Below, piece after piece: positions 11,229 to 27,941 of a stretch of 64,000 nucleotides of DNA (position 1 is the stretch's first letter; each line of letters starts with the position of its first letter). The DNA comes from Bacteroidetes bacterium 47-18. GTDB taxonomy: Bacteria > Bacteroidota > Bacteroidia > Chitinophagales > Chitinophagaceae. The position numbers were made by a program, and so were the translations under genes. Below the pieces are notes generated by a model that did no database searches, had not been told where the DNA came from, and saw only the letters and a list, made by a program, of their open reading frames with translations. The stretch is taken from NCBI GenBank assembly GCA_001897155.1, contig MKSF01000014.1, positions 310,001-374,000 of the forward strand, given 5' to 3'.

Positions 11229-14054
11229 CTAAAAATCGAAGAATACACCCACCCTTACCCCGAATTTCGAGATATCCGGACGGTCCAGGTAGGTATTGCG
11301 CCATATAGCATCCACCCGGAAGAAGCCCATGATATTGGTGACGCCCACATAGGTCTCTATATACGGATCGCTGCCCAGCGGCCGGGTGGTATAGGCACCC
11401 TCCTTATTAAGCGGGAATTTGAATACATTGCTGTTCAGTATCGGCAGGTTTTTGTCGCTGATATCCCCGTAAAGCAGCTTTATGCCCACCACTTCCCTGA
11501 ACTTCAGCTTTTTGAGCAGCGGTATCTTGTTGAAGATAAACCCGTAAAGGTGGTATTCCGCGTTCAGGAATACGTTCCTGTCGCTGATAAACTCCATATA
11601 GTTCATCAGCATATAGTCCTGGGTGCTGAGCCAGTAGGTCTGGTTGCCCGGCGGCAGGTGCAGCAATGTGAACGGCAGGTCTTCGCCGATGATATAATTC
11701 CCTCCCATCCTCAGGTTGATAAAGCCCATCTGGGGGATGAGTATCCTTTTGAAGATATTAAGATGGTAATTCTGGTAGGTGTATTCGCCGCCCCAGAGGT
11801 CTTTCAGCGCATACCGGGCTACAAAGGTGAAAATGGGGAACCGGTTGTTCATTTCCGTACGGGAGGTGCGGCCCTGAATGATCTTTTCGTTGGGCGCCCA
11901 GCGGAGCGTAAGGCCGAATTCGGTATTGGTCGTTGCCCTTACCGTATCATTGTAGGTGTCATCGCCTTTGATGTAATACCAGGAACCCGCCGGCATCTGC
12001 CGGGTCCACTGGAAGAACGGCACCATACGTATATGATTGCTGAATTCCCGGAAGTATTCTACCTTATAATATTTGTTGTAGATGAACTTATCGTTCACAC
12101 CCCGCTTGAAAGACAGAAAGAAGCTCCCCTCCTGGATAAACCCGGGTTGCTGCCCGGGGAGCAGGATGTCATTCTGATGAGTGACCTTGATATAGTTAAA
12201 GGGGTATTCCGTAAGCAGCCTGCTTTTATCCCTGTACAGGCCTAAGGAGCCGCTGGCAAAATATTTCCACTGCCGGTCCCTGAATCCATACCCGGCGAAT
12301 GTTTCTATATGAAACCTTTTGGTCTCATTGATCATCGTCCTGCCCCCGAAACGCAGCCGCAGGCCTTCCACGGGGTTAAAGGCATAAAAAGTGTTGGTGG
12401 GTCCCAGCTCCCAGTATTTGTTCACTTTCAGGTAGCCCACGAACAGGAAGCGCATCCATTTCATCTTTTCGTTAAAGCCTTTCTGGCGGTAAAGACTGTC
12501 CATGTTCTTATAGGCCAGCGCTTCCACACTGCTGAGGGGGAGCGGCCGTAGCGTATCCCATGAGGCGGCGGTAGCCGCGAAGATGCTGTCCTCATCCACG
12601 AACCGGCGTTTATTTTTCCACAGCTCGTCCGGAGGCACCACTTGGTCCTCGACCTTTTGTATCGTCGATAATTTTTCCCCGTAAATGCCGAAAGAGGTTT
12701 CGTTCATCAGGTTGAAATCCGCAAAAAGGTTATGGTAGCTCATGATATATTTGCCTGATCCCAACTGCTGGTAGTAGATGTCGAATTTAATATCCTTGAT
12801 GAAATTCAGGTTGATATCCTTGCTCAGCCCGAGCTTGGCATATTCTACGGCGTAGTTGGAGAGGTTGATATACAGCCTGCCCAGGAAAAGGAAATCGTTC
12901 TTATTGCGCGGCGCAAATTGCAGCTCTACGAGCGTTTTGCCTTCGGTGTGAATGGTATCCCCGATATAAAACTTATAAAAGGTAGGGCTGAACCTGGCCA
13001 TGGGGCTCATGAACTGGTTGGTCATCACCATGACATTGTCGTCCTTGAGGTCAAAGTTGATGTAGATATGGCTTAAGTAGTTGTCTATGGATTTGCCGGC
13101 GATAAAGCTTTCGTTGAACCGGACCTTCTTCAGCGCTTTAAGGTAGGTCACCTTATTCCTGATATGTCCTTTTATATAGACGTCCGTCAGCTTCTCCTGT
13201 ATGTATATGGGGGTAATGCCATGGGGCCTGTGCTTGATGGTGTCGATATTGTCAAAGATAAAAGCCTGCCGTCTGGTAAGGAAGTTATGTGTCAGCATCC
13301 TCGGCATATCATAGTTGCCCATCTGCACTTTCTCATATTGTTCGTATTGCAGGCCGGCCAGGGTATCGGAGAGGTAGTTGTTATCCTTGGCCGCTATCAC
13401 TTTCCTGATCAGCTCAACAGCAGGATTGTTCTTGTTGCTGTACCTTGCTCTCCTGGCGCTGATGGAAGCGCCCTGCAGCTCCTCCGAAGCCTCGTCCAGG
13501 CTGATGACGCGCCCGCTGTCCAGGGATGCGGTCGCTATGGTCCTTTCACGGTAGCTGATGGTTGAAAGAATGATGCTGTCCACATCTTCGGTAGTTTCAA
13601 GACGGACCCAGCCGGAAGCGTCCGACAGACCTATATGGTTACGGTCCTTATCCAGTATGCCGACATAGGGTATAGGTTGCTTGGTCTGGGAATCCAGGAT
13701 GCGGAAGGTAAAGGAGACCGGTACCAGGGATGGCGGGATAAAGCCGGAAGGGTAGATATAGACCAGCCGGTTGGTAATGTTGTCGTGCTGGATGAAGTAG
13801 TAAAGGGTATCATATCCTTCTTTTATGACCAGCAGGTTGATCAGCGTGTCCGCAATGCTGATCTCAAAATTACCGTTATCATCGCAGGTGACGCTCGTGG
13901 CGGTATCTGCCCATACCAGGGCCTCTGGGACAGGAAATAGAGATTCGTGGTCTATTACCCGGCCTGTAAGAACGTGCCTGTTCTGGGCTGCTGCAAGTGT
14001 GCCAAAACACAATAAGATTATCGTCCATATCCAGATCCTCAACAAATGGTTCAT
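11229..14054 (-). CDS. DUF5686 outer-membrane protein with carboxypeptidase-like domain
   Basis: 941 residues from the start at 14054 (MNHLLRIWIWTIILLCFGTL), where a signal peptide begins directly. After cleavage near AAAQN there is a CarboxypepD_reg-like beta-sandwich (HVLTGRVIDHESLFPVPEAL). A second similar segment follows (FTFRILDSQTKQPIPYVGIL), then the large DUF5686 region starting around ARYSNKNNPAVELIRKVIAA. The C-terminal half is rich in aromatic beta strands and ends in FGVRVGVFFDF, as expected of an outer-membrane barrel. The family is common in Bacteroidota and its function is unsettled. It diverges from the barrel gene at 14214. Confidence 0.85.
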   Translation of the reverse strand: MNHLLRIWIWTIILLCFGTLAAAQNRHVLTGRVIDHESLFPVPEALVWADTATSVTCDDNGNFEISIADTLINLLVIKEGYDTLYYFIQHDNITNRLVYIYPSGFIPPSLVPVSFTFRILDSQTKQPIPYVGILDKDRNHIGLSDASGWVRLETTEDVDSIILSTISYRERTIATASLDSGRVISLDEASEELQGASISARRARYSNKNNPAVELIRKVIAAKDNNYLSDTLAGLQYEQYEKVQMGNYDMPRMLTHNFLTRRQAFIFDNIDTIKHRPHGITPIYIQEKLTDVYIKGHIRNKVTYLKALKKVRFNESFIAGKSIDNYLSHIYINFDLKDDNVMVMTNQFMSPMARFSPTFYKFYIGDTIHTEGKTLVELQFAPRNKNDFLFLGRLYINLSNYAVEYAKLGLSKDINLNFIKDIKFDIYYQQLGSGKYIMSYHNLFADFNLMNETSFGIYGEKLSTIQKVEDQVVPPDELWKNKRRFVDEDSIFAATAASWDTLRPLPLSSVEALAYKNMDSLYRQKGFNEKMKWMRFLFVGYLKVNKYWELGPTNTFYAFNPVEGLRLRFGGRTMINETKRFHIETFAGYGFRDRQWKYFASGSLGLYRDKSRLLTEYPFNYIKVTHQNDILLPGQQPGFIQEGSFFLSFKRGVNDKFIYNKYYKVEYFREFSNHIRMVPFFQWTRQMPAGSWYYIKGDDTYNDTVRATTNTEFGLTLRWAPNEKIIQGRTSRTEMNNRFPIFTFVARYALKDLWGGEYTYQNYHLNIFKRILIPQMGFINLRMGGNYIIGEDLPFTLLHLPPGNQTYWLSTQDYMLMNYMEFISDRNVFLNAEYHLYGFIFNKIPLLKKLKFREVVGIKLLYGDISDKNLPILNSNVFKFPLNKEGAYTTRPLGSDPYIETYVGVTNIMGFFRVDAIWRNTYLDRPDISKFGVRVGVFFDF

Positions 14055-23084: not shown

Positions 23085-23501
23085 CTACTTATTAAGGAGC
23101 GCTTCGAGACGTTTTATCATAAGCTCTTTCTCTTCCAGCATTCGCTCATATAAAGCCATCTTTTCTGCGTGAAATTCAATTATTTTACTAAGCGGATGGA
23201 TGTTAAATGTAGAGGCATGCCCGCCAAAATAGGCGCCTTCATTGAAGGTATTGGATATGACATTATTAATACCTTGTTCGCTGTCAAAATTTTTGATGAT
23301 TTCAACCGGAATGTTTAAGATAGCCGATATTTTTTCCAGGATTGGCAAGTCAATATATTCTTTTTGCTCCAGTAGAGATACTTTTTTCTGGTTCCAGTCT
23401 TCACCCAATTCGTAAGCCAGGGTCTCCTGTTTGATACCCAGCATTTCCCTTAGCTTTTTGATATTACGGCCTTGATGTACATTGAGCTCCATAGCTTCCA
23501 T
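23085..23501 (-). CDS. XRE-family helix-turn-helix regulator
   Basis: 138 residues (or 135 from the Met at 23492). The N-terminal HTH is recognisable as GRNIKKLREMLGIKQETLAYELG...WNQKKVSLLEQKE, followed by LEKISAILNIPVEIIKNF. The middle (about 75-105) is linker-like. The C-terminus (SKIIEFHAEKMALYERMLEE plus KELMIKRLEALLNK) is a probable coiled coil for dimerisation. It is transcribed away from the metallopeptidase gene. Four copies of a palindrome lie just in front of it (23547-23615), consistent with autoregulation and possibly control of the divergent gene. The ligand or signal is unknown. Confidence 0.9.
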   Translation of the reverse strand: MEAMELNVHQGRNIKKLREMLGIKQETLAYELGEDWNQKKVSLLEQKEYIDLPILEKISAILNIPVEIIKNFDSEQGINNVISNTFNEGAYFGGHASTFNIHPLSKIIEFHAEKMALYERMLEEKELMIKRLEALLNK

Positions 23502-23546
23502 AGTTTAGATTTAGACTTTTATAGTAACTGCAAAAAAGTAAAGTTA

Positions 23547-23615
23547 GGATAATTTATCCGGTAAAATATCCCGTTTACGGGATAAAATATCCTCGCAAAT
23601 GGGATAAAATATCCC
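23547..23615. promoter_or_regulatory. Array of four palindromic operator-like sites
   Basis: Four related palindromes lie at 23547-23559 (GGATAATTTATCC), 23560-23572 (GGTAAAATATCCC), 23579-23592 (GGGATAAAATATCC) and 23601-23615 (GGGATAAAATATCCC). A further half-site, AATATCCC, is near 23627, and CCCGTTTACGGG bridges sites 2 and 3. They sit about 45-115 bp in front of the XRE regulator start, in the gap shared with the metallopeptidase. A dimeric HTH repressor would suit such sites; binding is inferred. Confidence 0.7.
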
Positions 23616-23773
23616 TTTAGAAACTTGAATATCCCAAAAGCCGGGTGTTGTTTTGCGCTGCTGGTATAAAGAATTATTTACATCCGAAATAGTATGGATA
23701 TGACTACGGCAGACTGCCTGTTAATTAACGTATTGTTAAAATTATATATTTTAAGTATGTTTAATAAAAAAAA

Positions 23774-23781
23774 TAATTTTG
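23774..23781 (+). promoter_or_regulatory. -7 element upstream of the metallopeptidase
   Basis: TAATTTTG fits TAnnTTTG and lies 66 bp in front of the ATG at 23848. No TTG stands at the usual distance, so the promoter may be weak or need activation. Confidence 0.45.
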
Positions 23782-23847: not shown

Positions 23848-25803
23848 ATGAAAAAAATCAACTTCCTAATGTTGCTTTTAATTGTAGTATTTGCGTCCTG
23901 CAGAAAGACGGACCGACAATCAAACTCCGGGACTGGCTTGCCCCAGCTTCAAAAAATCAGTGGCGTTGCTTCTGATGATATGATGCTTGAATACCGCTGG
24001 ACAAGTCCGTACAGCCTGAAAGTCGTCAGGGCATTGCGCGAGCATGCTGCTGCCACAGGTTCCGATAGTCTGCAAATGGTATTGAATGCACCGCTGAAAG
24101 CCGACAATTATTTCTTATACTATGTGATTGATTTAGTGACCGAAGACCAGGCGGCAGCGCTCCATACGTGGATGGAAGCGGATAGCCAAAACATGGTGGT
24201 GCGCTATCCCGTAGACAGCGTATCTATGTACCCGCATTTATTCGGTGAAGATGTAATGGAAGCCTACGATGAACATAATGCACGTTTTTACGCTACTATA
24301 CCGATGGGTACACCCCTGCCCAATGCTATGGGTGCAACGATCCTTGACACGCTGTATGTGCCGGATGCAGATGAACGGGCACTGGACTTTATGCTGAACC
24401 TTTGGACGGCCAATTTTTCCAACGGCTATATCAATTATTTACAGGGTGCTGCTCCGGGACTGTATGATTTTACCATGAGGGTACACAATGAGGAACGCTA
24501 TGTTCCACAGGGATTTGACCCGATAGACCCCGGCACGGGCAATGACTGGCGCAATCCATTCGGGACGGCCAACAACGGACAGTTCTTTACGCCCCGTGAG
24601 CTGTTTGACAATGGTGGTATGACAGGCATAACCAACCCGGTAAGGCGGTCACGTGGTATCTCTTTCCGGGAAAACACCTTAGATGTAAACGAGGGAATTC
24701 GTGGGCTGCGGGTAGTGGCTACGCGTTTTGTGGTCTTTCAAAGAATTACCATGACCGATATAAATGGGGAATTTGAAGTTGATCTGCCACGTTTCGGCTT
24801 TGTAGGCATCAATTACATTTTCAAAAATACCGAGCTTCAGATACGTGGTACGGATTTCAGCCACCATACGGTAGCCGGAAAAATGGTAAGTGGGCTGAAA
24901 GCTGCCTTCCTGGCCTATGTGCCTGTGATGCACTTCCAATTCTGCGATCCTTTCAACAATATCAACGATCTGGTTATCAATTTTGCGCACGGTACGAAAA
25001 AGGCGCTTTGGGGACTGACCTACAATGCCGTGCAGGAAGCGAACGGCTATACCATAGACCTGAATATGCGAAATGGTACTAAATTCCTGGATGTGCTTTG
25101 CAATTATGCCCAAAACGGTGGCCCCTCTGCGGCTCCTATGTTGCGCTACGTGTACAACTTCCTCGGTGGTCCTGACTATATTTTTCGACTGTTCCAGCTT
25201 AGCGCCTATGTAGGCACCAGCCTGCCGGGTGTATTACCGGATATGATAATCACCGGGCAGAAAAACGATCCTGAAGATACGCACGAGCTGCGACACACCA
25301 TATACCACGAATACGGGCATACGTTGCACTACTTTAAGGCGAATGTGATGGACAGCGATCACTGGAAGCGAAACATAGCCCTTAGCCCACCCCCTGGCTA
25401 CGGTGACGACATTAACGATGTCCGTGGCAGCTATTTTGCATTGTCCGAGGGCTGGGCGGATTTTATTGGTCACACGTATAATTTCAGGAAGTATAATACT
25501 AATGCAACGCATACCGAAACCAACAGATGGACGGGTGTACCGAGGACAGGTAATTACCAGTTCCTGTTGGAAGAAGTGCCTACTTTTAATAATAATTTTA
25601 TTGCAAGAGGATTATTTTATGACCTGACAGATGCTTGGAACCAAGCTGAGCAATTTGATGATATTGAGGGTTTCACGATCAACCAGATCTACCAGCATTT
25701 GACACCATTTAATTACACAATACAGGATTTCCGTACGAGCTGGGAAAATATGCATCCTGACATCAACAATGCAGCTTTATTTAATGAATATCTAAACAGA
25801 TAA
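23848..25803 (+). CDS. Zincin-type metallopeptidase lipoprotein
   Basis: 651 residues. The signal sequence MKKINFLMLLLIVVFASC ends in a lipobox (FASC), so the protein is anchored to a membrane, possibly at the cell surface. HEYGH at residues 487-491 with a third ligand candidate Glu534 in LSEGWADFIGH (43 residues on) gives a gluzincin-like zinc site. A beta-sandwich-like segment around 280-345 (NEGIRGLRVVATRFVVFQRI) resembles carboxypeptidase regulatory domains. I do not recognise the exact family or substrate. The lipoprotein gene begins 2 bp behind its stop, so the two are probably translationally coupled. The gene's last 30-40 codons recur twice downstream (26453, 27241). Confidence 0.85.
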   Translation: MKKINFLMLLLIVVFASCRKTDRQSNSGTGLPQLQKISGVASDDMMLEYRWTSPYSLKVVRALREHAAATGSDSLQMVLNAPLKADNYFLYYVIDLVTEDQAAALHTWMEADSQNMVVRYPVDSVSMYPHLFGEDVMEAYDEHNARFYATIPMGTPLPNAMGATILDTLYVPDADERALDFMLNLWTANFSNGYINYLQGAAPGLYDFTMRVHNEERYVPQGFDPIDPGTGNDWRNPFGTANNGQFFTPRELFDNGGMTGITNPVRRSRGISFRENTLDVNEGIRGLRVVATRFVVFQRITMTDINGEFEVDLPRFGFVGINYIFKNTELQIRGTDFSHHTVAGKMVSGLKAAFLAYVPVMHFQFCDPFNNINDLVINFAHGTKKALWGLTYNAVQEANGYTIDLNMRNGTKFLDVLCNYAQNGGPSAAPMLRYVYNFLGGPDYIFRLFQLSAYVGTSLPGVLPDMIITGQKNDPEDTHELRHTIYHEYGHTLHYFKANVMDSDHWKRNIALSPPPGYGDDINDVRGSYFALSEGWADFIGHTYNFRKYNTNATHTETNRWTGVPRTGNYQFLLEEVPTFNNNFIARGLFYDLTDAWNQAEQFDDIEGFTINQIYQHLTPFNYTIQDFRTSWENMHPDINNAALFNEYLNR

Positions 25804-25805
25804 AT

Positions 25806-26411
25806 ATGAAAAAATATTTGGTATTACTTTTAAGCGTATTGACGCTGATATCCTGTGATCCTAAAGATATGGCGAATGAAGGCATCACATTGCCGCCGAT
25901 GGAATTCGGGTTGAAGGTAAGTCCCGATACTGCGTATATTAAGTTAGGAGATACGCTGACGTTGTACGCCTCTATCCCAAGCACACTAAGCAATGGCGTC
26001 AAAATAGAAGACGGTAAAGCCACGATTGATCTATATATGGGATATAGAAATGAGATACCTGTCTTACATACGAATAACGAAGCTGTAGTCGTAGGTACAC
26101 ATTTGAATGTTTTAGAAGAAAAAGGTAGCATAAGAATTTACCCAAGTACAAATAATATTGTGGAAATCTATGCGCATCCGTATGGGGACAGCATCCAGGT
26201 TGAAATGAAATTTATTCCTCTAAAGACTGGAACCTATGTTATACAGACGTATTCTAAGTTTTACGAAGGGAAAAAAGGCAAAACCCGAACTATACCTAAA
26301 TTTGCTATGGAAGACACGCATTGGGATTTGTATCAAATTCCGGGAGACCCAAGCCCTAATCCCGGAGAAGATAGTTATTACAAGTCTTACTGGTTTGCTG
26401 TCACTGATTAA
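25806..26411 (+). CDS. Small lipoprotein, cassette copy 1
   Basis: 201 residues. The signal MKKYLVLLLSVLTLISC ends in the lipobox LISC. The mature part begins DPKDMANEGITLPPMEFGLK, continues with SPDTAYIKLGDTLTLYASIP (Ig-like beta-strand pattern), and ends YKSYWFAVTD. It starts 2 bp after the metallopeptidase stop codon, implying coupled expression and a shared job. Two further copies follow. Copies 1 and 3 share a run of 55 identical bases (26032-26086 with 27559-27613). I do not recognise the family; a chaperone, anchor, inhibitor or substrate-binding partner of the peptidase are all possible. Confidence 0.85.
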   Translation: MKKYLVLLLSVLTLISCDPKDMANEGITLPPMEFGLKVSPDTAYIKLGDTLTLYASIPSTLSNGVKIEDGKATIDLYMGYRNEIPVLHTNNEAVVVGTHLNVLEEKGSIRIYPSTNNIVEIYAHPYGDSIQVEMKFIPLKTGTYVIQTYSKFYEGKKGKTRTIPKFAMEDTHWDLYQIPGDPSPNPGEDSYYKSYWFAVTD

Positions 26412-26419
26412 GAGTTGAC

Positions 26420-26451
26420 AAGCCGTAGCATTCTTTTTGCTGCGGCTTTTT
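26420..26451 (+). terminator. Terminator of cassette 1
   Basis: AAGCCGTAGCA pairs with TGCTGCGGCTT around a T-rich loop and is followed by a T-run. Related hairpins close the next two cassettes (27205-27235, 27943-27979). Confidence 0.85.
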
Positions 26452-26452
26452 A

Positions 26453-26578
26453 ATGAACCAGATCTACCAGCATTTGACACCATTTAATTATACAATACAA
26501 GACTTTCGTAGAAGTTGGGAAAATCAGCATCCTGATGTCAATAATGCACTTTTGTTTAATCAGTATGGTATAAATTAG
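26453..26578 (+). pseudogene. Duplicated 3' tail of the metallopeptidase gene (cassette 2)
   Basis: 41 codons reading MNQIYQHLTPFNYTIQDFRR and so on to LLFNQYGIN. They match the last codons of the metallopeptidase (NQIYQHLTPFNYTIQDFRTS and onward) with few changes. The matching part begins directly behind the first cassette's terminator and ends 4 bp before the next lipoprotein ATG, so it is the tail of a lost or truncated peptidase gene. An ATG opens the fragment, so a 41-residue peptide could in principle be made. Confidence 0.85.
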
Positions 26579-26582
26579 TTTT

Positions 26583-27197
26583 ATGAAAAGAATATTAATA
26601 GCTTCGATAGTCTGTCTACTTGTTGTTTCTTGCGACCCCAAAGATATGCCCACAGAAGATATAACCCTTCCTGATATAGAGTTTGCTTTCACTGTAAATC
26701 CAGATACAGCTTATTTAAAAGTTGGTGATACTTTTGCAATTCGTGCAGCTATTAGCAGCAAATTAAGCAACGGAGTACAACTAACCGACGGTGGAGGTGA
26801 AATCTGGTTTAGTGCAGTTAGAGGGGAAAATATACCGAGAATTTCTTTTGATGACATAAGTCCAGCATTAAATAATGAAGATTACAATCTGATAATTGAA
26901 AATGGAGCTGTAAAATGGATGTCTTCCAATCCCAATCAACTATATAGATTAACATTTTTTCCTACAGGCGATTCAATTATTTTACATTACAAGTTTGTAT
27001 TTCTCAAAAAAGGACTATACCAAATCGGAGGATTCCAATCTTCGTTTTATCAAGGCTCAAAAGGTAAAGCAAGAACCAAGACTTATTTCAATGTAGCAAA
27101 TCACAATTGGAATCTTGTAGATATGCCAGAAAATCCGGTTCCTAAACCTGGAGAATATGGATATAGTGAGAATTATCTGTTTGCCGTCACAGATTAA
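26583..27197 (+). CDS. Small lipoprotein, cassette copy 2 (divergent)
   Basis: 204 residues. The signal MKRILIASIVCLLVVSC has lipobox VVSC, then DPKDMPTEDITLPDIEFAF. Both ends are conserved with copies 1 and 3 (NPDTAYLKVGDTFAIRAAIS near the start; GYSENYLFAVTD at the end). The middle, about residues 65-135 (SAVRGENIPRISFDDISPAL and beyond), is quite different. Its DNA is noticeably more A/T-rich than the surrounding copies. This pattern suggests a different specificity or a different age of acquisition. Function unknown. Confidence 0.82.
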   Translation: MKRILIASIVCLLVVSCDPKDMPTEDITLPDIEFAFTVNPDTAYLKVGDTFAIRAAISSKLSNGVQLTDGGGEIWFSAVRGENIPRISFDDISPALNNEDYNLIIENGAVKWMSSNPNQLYRLTFFPTGDSIILHYKFVFLKKGLYQIGGFQSSFYQGSKGKARTKTYFNVANHNWNLVDMPENPVPKPGEYGYSENYLFAVTD

Positions 27198-27336: not shown

Positions 27337-27941
27337 ATGGAAAAATATTTGGTTTTATTTCTAAGCACATTGGTGTTCATATCCTGTGAGCCAGATCCTA
27401 TAGATGAAGGTATTACCTTGCCTGAAATGGAATTTGGATTGATAGTTAGTCCCGTACAGCTTATATCAGATTAGGCGATACCGTTACCTTGTATGCTTCT
27501 ATACCGAGCATATTAAGTAATGGCGTTAAGATAGAAGACGGTAAAGCAACGATTGACTTATATATGGGATATAGAAATGAGATACCTGTCTTACATACGA
27601 ATAACGAAGCTGTGATTGTAGGTACACATTTGAATATTTTAGAAGAAAAAGGAAGCGTTAGGATCAGTCCTAATACGGGTAAAATCGTAGAAGTCTATGC
27701 GCATCCATACGGGGACAGCATCCAGGTAGCGATAAAATTTATTCCTCTAAAGACCGGAACCTATGTTATGCAGTTTTATTCTAAGTTTTACGAAGGGAAA
27801 AGAGGTAAAACCCGAACCGTTCCTAAATTTGATGTTGAAAATCCCCATTGGGATCAACTGTGGAAAATAGAAGGACATCCCGCACCAAGTGCAAAAGAAA
27901 GCAGTTATTATAGGAATTATTTTTTCGCTGTCACTGATTAA
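27337..27941 (+). pseudogene. Small lipoprotein, cassette copy 3, frameshifted
   Basis: The ATG at 27337 gives MEKYLVLFLSTLVFISCEPD (lipobox FISC), then ITLPEMEFGLIVSP, after which the frame breaks. At 27451-27458 the DNA reads CCCGTACA where copy 1 has CCCGATAC, so one base is missing. From about 27455 the frame one base over continues as TAYIRLGDTVTLYASIPSIL and onward to NYFFAVTD at 27941. With the lost base restored the product would be 201 residues, equal to copy 1. It is a recent inactivation, or a sequencing error. The downstream open part could only be expressed by an internal start. Confidence 0.8.

Follow-up and report, generated by a model that had tools for sequence, protein, structure and literature searches.

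The window, by which we mean the entire 64,000-nucleotide stretch of DNA analysed here, encompasses a 346-bp intergenic stretch flanked by two divergent genes. On the minus strand, an open reading frame (ORF) encodes an XRE-type helix-turn-helix (HTH) regulator of 138 amino acids (23085-23501), and on the plus strand, divergent from it, lies the ORF of a predicted lipoprotein metallopeptidase (23848-25803), with an HEYGH motif read from the sequence. Beside the peptidase gene is a lipoprotein gene (25806-26411, plus strand), with similar genes at 26583-27197 and 27489-27941. An earlier note on this DNA had placed an array of palindromic sites between the divergent XRE and metallopeptidase genes, which is borne out by the ORFs. 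Neither Pfam (at E 0.001) nor NCBIfam (at 0.01) yielded a match for the peptidase. A piece of its C-terminus (residues 608-648, 83% identical) recurs at 26444-26566 and, together with the repeated lipoprotein genes, points to a putative tandem duplication of the peptidase tail plus lipoprotein.

The XRE protein scored 20.6 bits against Pfam HTH_3 (PF01381; cut-off, 23) and, among PHROG families, matched transcription regulators (best E 6.7e-7). The AlphaFold2 model (mean pLDDT 74.6, pTM 0.49, with blocks of residues 11-60 at 88-90) consists of a globular HTH domain and a long C-terminal helix (residues 103-136). In a Foldseek search with this model, the top matches, at probability 1.00, were C.BclI, the DNA-binding domain of the 434 repressor, and C.AhdI, with a best E of 4.0e-3 and no match at E 0.001 or better; C.Csp231I is also among the nearest solved folds. 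Together, the model and these matches assign the protein to the XRE fold. A sequence search of solved structures with the same protein yielded no match at E 0.01. The predicted recognition helix comprises residues 38-44 (QKKVSLL), encoded at 23370-23390 on the minus strand, as delineated by the AlphaFold2 helix H38-44; its residue K39 ranks first in the column scan described below. The protein also matches the PADLOC model HTH_VI (34.1 bits), which we take to be retron-associated. The non-canonical LexA of Bacteroidetes (PMC8565304) was set aside as a candidate identity, given a 138-residue XRE protein with no Pfam peptidase match.

The intergenic stretch contains four predicted operator sites that match GGATAnnnTATCC, a pattern with 10 fixed bases, at 8/10 or better, three of them perfectly. 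Site 1 (23547-23559, GGATAATTTATCC, 10/10) is the same in the closest paralogue, on contig C22; site 2 (23560-23572, GGGATATTTTACC when read on the XRE strand) reaches 8/10 when scored as 23559-23571; site 3 (23579-23593) has the core GGATAAAATATCC at 23580-23592, and site 4 (23601-23615, GGGATAAAATATCCC) has its core at 23602-23614, both 10/10. Further out, an in-phase half-site, TATCCC (23630-23635), has its centre at 23628, 20 bp beyond that of site 4, and scores 6/10 as a complete 13-mer. The site centres thus are at 23553, 23565, 23586 and 23608, with the half-site at 23628, and the spacings are 12, 21, 22 and 20 bp. When the 346-bp stretch was shuffled 5000 times with dinucleotides preserved, no shuffle contained four 8/10 sites, the maximum being three (5 shuffles), and a single perfect GGATAnnnTATCC site occurred in 1 of the 5000, compared with the three observed. 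The array of repeated sites is real and beyond chance. Palindromes of the general form 5+3+5 are another matter: three were observed in this AT-rich stretch, and 562 of the 5000 shuffles contained at least three, so that the generic palindrome count is ordinary and the signal of the array lies in the shared sequence of the sites.

The four recurrent palindromic sites and the half-site reported in the earlier note therefore stand, as three perfect sites and one at 8/10, whereas of the centre spacings given there (about 13, 20 and 22 bp) only 22 holds, the other two being 12 and 21 bp as measured. The same note had seen no other copy in the window. This is correct for perfect copies of GGATAnnnTATCC, of which none was found outside the array within the 64 kb, but not for near matches, because 9/10 matches are present at 62-74 and 13805-13817 and 8/10 matches are scattered throughout. 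A bridging palindrome described there, CCCGTTTACGGG (23570-23581), is made up of the arms with which sites 2 and 3 face each other and has no counterpart in the array of the C22 paralogue; accordingly, we rejected it as a separate element. Genome-wide, 10 matches to GGATAnnnTATCC were found in 3.87 Mb, compared with 7 for a reversed-pattern control: three in the array, one upstream of the C22 paralogue, and six scattered, about the chance level. The abundance of unlinked copies that would have spoken against local control is thus not seen in this genome.

Read on the XRE strand, the array leads into TAACTTTA, a predicted -7-like box found by pattern scan (23539-23546, minus strand) that abuts site 1, with sites 1-4 located upstream of it. 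The -7 consensus of Bacteroidota is TAnnTTTG, and TAACTTTA is a near match. Toward the peptidase, the nearest -7-like box from the same kind of scan is TAATTTTG (23774-23781, plus strand), about 140-160 bp from the edge of the array, and no clear upstream element of this box was found by eye. The layout fits control, first of all, of the predicted XRE promoter: the phased sites abut or overlap the putative core promoter of the regulator's own gene, as in an autoregulator. Across loci of the XRE family, the distance from the last site to the -7 box is scattered, and 9 of 64 loci have no box within 60 bp; perhaps, two promoters are present upstream of many of the homologues. In four Flavobacterium loci (L051, L056, L060 and L116), a second -7-like box, contained in CTTTATCTTTGAGCC, lies ~37 bp downstream of the first one, which suggests a second promoter, perhaps an unregulated one.

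The genome encodes five other close copies of the XRE protein, one of which, on contig C18 (L006:1501-1872 of genome G000), is interrupted by an in-frame stop, contains a short internal duplication and is apparently decayed. The nearest paralogue, on C22, is 70% identical to the window protein and carries an array of its own, with one site more than that of the window. The promoter-proximal site, GGATAAATTATCC, and the next one, TAACTTTAC, are kept, whereas two sites are rewritten to GGTATAnnnTATACC, reading GGTATATTTTATACC where the window has GGATATTTTATCC, and the outermost one is half-changed, GGGATATTTTATACC. The C22 protein lacks the two residues directly before the recognition helix (E34-D35 of the window protein) and has R in place of K40. 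Residue 39 is K in both proteins and therefore cannot explain the difference between their sites, which must have another source, with the two missing residues and K40R as candidates. The deletion alone cannot account for the C22 sites either, because other proteins lacking these two residues (the SQQA class) have TGTA-type sites. The divergent neighbour of the C22 gene encodes a TonB-dependent receptor (Plug domain), not a peptidase; as the two loci share the regulator gene and the array but not the neighbour, the homologous unit consists of the regulator and the array.

Within the same bacterial family, at least 70 of 294 genomes and at least 40 of 101 genera encode homologues of the XRE protein (E 1e-15 or better); among the best 80 of 500 matches, homologues are also present in Flavobacterium, Chryseobacterium, Niabella, Dyadobacter and others. 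Upstream of 115 homologues (250 bp each), we found 48 sites at 9/10 or better, distributed over 33 loci, compared with 0.79 expected from shuffles and 1.48 from flanking DNA. Among 62 representatives (protein similarity ratio below 0.85), there were 23 such sites in 15 loci, compared with 0.45 and 0.94, respectively. Fetching 60 further loci of this family, of which 51 were usable and 9, lacking the N-terminal motif by which the gene was placed, were left out, brought the collection to 166, including apparent double entries, such as L028/L107 and L031/L110. We assigned these loci to classes by the residue that follows the conserved Gln of helix 3 (K39 in the window protein): 111 K, 34 Q and 17 R, with the other 4 outside the class tests. 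The array is not universal, given that 45 of the 111 K-class loci have no 8/10 site. A strict double-site pattern, found once each in 15 of the 294 genomes (control, 5 genomes), was rejected as a family-wide finder, with 14 of the 15 matches located away from an XRE gene of this family; only the match in the window adjoins one, which makes the window array an unusually perfect example.

For the site counts by class, arm sequences, spacings and column scan, we used representatives with protein similarity ratios below 0.88. Site pairs 20-23 bp apart numbered 30 in the K class and 39 in the Q class, compared with 1.05 in shuffles for each, and further peaks near 11-12, 31-33 and 41-44 bp correspond to multiples of the helical repeat. 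Site types were called in the 300 bp upstream (GG-type at 8/10, TGTA-type at 7/8), with thresholds chosen after the first loci had been seen and with the K/Q/R grouping first noticed in loci that belong to the test set. The 69 K-class representatives have 64 GG-type sites in 37 loci (8.6 in shuffles) and 25 TGTA-type sites in 17 loci (10.3); the 31 Q-class representatives have 52 TGTA-type sites in 26 loci (6.3) and a single GG-type site (2.5); and the 14 R-class representatives have three GG-type sites, all in one locus (1.1), and no TGTA-type site (1.2), with CCGTA or CGGTA in 11 of 26 R-class arms. Within palindromic TAnnnTA sites, the base flanking the core on the outside is A in 108 of 154 K-class arms, G in 52 of 54 Q-class arms and G in 16 of 26 R-class arms. 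The site type tracks residue 39 of the predicted recognition helix, with K corresponding to GGATA arms, Q to TGTA, and R mostly to C(C/G)GTA. Exceptions exist: of the 81 K or Q representatives whose site type could be decided, 14 depart from this pattern, all of them K proteins with TGTA-type sites.

In a column scan of 78 representatives, with the site type taken from the DNA alone and, as in the nearest-pair comparison, proteins outside the K, Q and R classes or shorter than 110 residues left out, residue 39 came first among all columns aligned to the window protein (mutual information 0.45, compared with 0.02 in shuffles; z 20), followed by E26 (z 14.7) and Q10 (z 9.7). Residue 39 is the second residue of the modelled helix 3, and each of the three residues lies at the start of a helix or beside it (helices 3, 2 and 1, respectively; H38-44, H25-32 and H10-20 in the AlphaFold2 model). 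Helix starts of this kind are where XRE proteins usually meet DNA. Common descent may confound this association: a helix-masked tree of 121 rows (representatives at a ratio below 0.90, of which 74 belong to the K class, 14 with TGTA-type sites and 19 undecided) implies at least 18 changes of the K/Q trait, but it is poorly resolved, with no more than two pairs supported by its branches and p 1 in the built-in sign test. Among 34 nearest Q/K pairs, 19 differ in the expected direction, none in the opposite one, and 15 are undecided. For 14 path-disjoint pairs taken nearest first on the same weak tree and from the same representatives, the counts are 11, 0 and 3, and with random order, the means are 6.7 expected and 2.5 undecided, with none opposite.

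Other members of the family face different divergent genes. In the genome of the window, the XRE paralogues on contigs C29 and C35 face SymE-like genes (PF08845), which are the only two SymE matches in the genome at E 0.01; no SymE-like gene adjoins the window XRE gene or is encoded on C14. A divergent SymE-like ORF is located upstream in 26 of the 166 loci (for example, L005:2049-2318 and L002:1506-1760), and a divergent ORF of another family, ~185 amino acids long, in 24 of the 166 (for example, L094:2283-2822), many of these from Flavobacterium and Chryseobacterium. Both are present in L028 and L107, apparently one locus from two collections. Seen from the SymE side, an XRE gene of this family is located beside SymE in 13 of the 31 SymE loci fetched. 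The members of the ~185-amino-acid family that we tried had no convincing match in Pfam, NCBIfam, PHROG or PADLOC. Part of the XRE family may thus regulate toxin-like genes.

We conclude that the array is, with high probability, an autoregulatory operator through which the adjacent XRE protein controls its own gene. As the earlier note had proposed, the sites appear to belong to this protein: many of its homologues carry such sites, their type follows the predicted recognition helix, and they are phased with the DNA helix. From these features, we infer a circuit that would rely on binding, dimerisation, cooperativity and repression, and on insulation from other XRE circuits. XRE dimers would bind the 13-15 bp palindromes, with dimerisation probably mediated by the long C-terminal helix. 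With sites ~12 and ~21 bp apart, successive dimers would come to lie on one face of the DNA and would occupy the array stepwise and probably cooperatively, giving a graded or cooperative response. With site 1 abutting the -7-like box of the XRE gene, its occupation would block RNA polymerase and hold the level of the regulator down; the sign of this control, repression rather than activation, is read from the position of the sites alone. The predicted recognition helix would read the arm sequence, residue 39 being a main determinant, and the tendency of sites and helix to covary across the family would help to keep paralogous circuits apart.

An additional role of the array in governing the divergent metallopeptidase and lipoprotein genes seems unlikely, although some effect on the peptidase gene is conceivable. 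The divergent layout, with the array inside the shared intergenic stretch, would suit such dual control, as would the frequent presence, in other loci, of a divergent gene of the SymE-like or ~185-amino-acid kind ~100-250 bp from the XRE start. The distance from the array to the peptidase-side box, the TonB receptor gene opposite the C22 array, and the distribution of the two genes argue against it: peptidase homologues (E 1e-10) were found in 4 of the 294 genomes, including the genome of the window itself, compared with the at least 70 with the XRE protein. In two of the three other genomes (G055 and G044), a relative of the window's lipoprotein gene (E 1.3e-3 and 2.1e-5, respectively) comes after the peptidase gene, with no adjoining XRE gene and no 9/10 site, and therefore the peptidase and the lipoprotein seem to be a pair by themselves. 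None of the peptidase loci of three relatives (G055, G044 and G161, with 1.5-kb flanks) contained a 9/10 site or an XRE gene of the family, with the neighbours judged in G055 and G044, as the peptidase of G161 (L134) was not refound. In a wider stretch of G055, an XRE gene lies ~4.7 kb from the peptidase gene, with unrelated genes in between. The earlier note had taken the array as a sign that the whole peptidase/lipoprotein locus is a dedicated unit of regulation, a suggestion not supported in view of the TonB neighbour of the paralogue, the peptidase-lipoprotein pairs without XRE, and the position of the array at the XRE box. Control of the peptidase locus as the main role was rejected as the best explanation on the homologue counts, together with the C22 neighbour and these pairs.

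It is similarly doubtful that the array serves activation or a two-stage switch of the kind found in the controllers of restriction-modification (R-M) systems, with the distal sites recruiting RNA polymerase at low protein levels and site 1 shutting the promoter at high levels. The nearest folds, C.BclI, C.AhdI and C.Csp231I, are of the type that acts in this manner (PMC3115060 and PMC4824078), and several sites of unequal quality do lie upstream of one promoter. The array, however, has four to five sites rather than two, and with site 2 on the likely (inferred) -33 region and site 1 at the -7-like box, there would be little room for an activating complex. That the sites belong to some other regulator of the cell and are located here by chance of neighbourhood is improbable: six further single matches exist in the genome, but these are at about the level of the control, and the sites recur upstream of the XRE family in many genera and vary with its own helix residue. 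Least probable is a DNA structure, such as hairpins, a terminator or a repeat element, in place of a protein operator, because, notwithstanding the long inverted arms (for example, 23546-23565 and 23574-23593), the spacings cluster at multiples of ~10.5 bp, the arms follow a protein residue across the family, and the paralogue lacks the bridging palindrome.

Beyond autoregulation itself, we tentatively consider the possibility that the regulator and its array form a self-control unit, perhaps a mobile one, that has spread in Bacteroidota, with duplicates rewriting the recognition region and most of the sites in step and thereby becoming largely insulated. The window and C22 copies would be one such split, in which the loss of E34-D35, and perhaps K40R, went along with half-sites 1 bp longer. 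That the C22 paralogue has the same site 1 and the same residue 39 as the window copy keeps us from rating this scenario higher.

What looked like an isolated repeat becomes a testable recognition rule for a large family of regulators, in which one helix residue predicts much of the arm sequence. Such a rule would allow operators, and then targets and toxin-like partners such as SymE, to be predicted across Bacteroidota. The diverged regulator-operator pairs of the family also provide natural material for asking how paralogous circuits are kept apart. Among the top papers listed in a limited literature search, none dealt with this XRE family of Bacteroidota, its operators, or its pairing with SymE.

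Judged by the predicted model, the closest kind to the window regulator is the R-M controller (C) protein, although no structural match reached E 0.001. Like the C proteins, and C.Csp231I (motif 8) in particular, it appears to be a small autoregulator of the XRE fold with repeated palindromes upstream of its own gene. It differs from them in the four to five sites in place of two, in the long C-terminal helix, and in the AT-rich TAnnnTA core of the sites, with GGA, TG or CCG/CGG as outer bases. None of the seven ORFs scanned between 21986 and 29078 matched an R-M gene in Pfam or NCBIfam, so that, within this stretch, the regulator does not lie with restriction and modification genes. The 434 and lambda repressors and SinR share the HTH fold, and repressors of this type act on multiple phased operators that overlap the regulator's own promoter. 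In contrast, no phage switch is known here, the operator sequence is different, and no divergent second repressor gene is present in the window. In motif 8 controllers, residue 37 of the recognition helix (Gln or His) tracks an operator base (PMC3115060), and C.Csp231I both activates and represses its own promoter (PMC4824078); correlating protein and site columns is an established method (PMC5045206). Xre-RES modules and other self-repressing HTH antitoxins show XRE-type autoregulation on palindromes (PMC12204516), as predicted for the present family, some copies of which face a SymE-like gene, although no SymE gene adjoins the window copy. An HTH protein would be an unusual partner for SymE, which is listed in Pfam as a type I toxin. 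The XRE paralogues of Caulobacter (RtrA, RtrB, CdxA, CdxB and the phage TgrL) are likewise numerous in one genome and share largely overlapping sites (59-99% by ChIP-seq; PMC10688885), whereas the predicted operators of the paralogues described here visibly differ.
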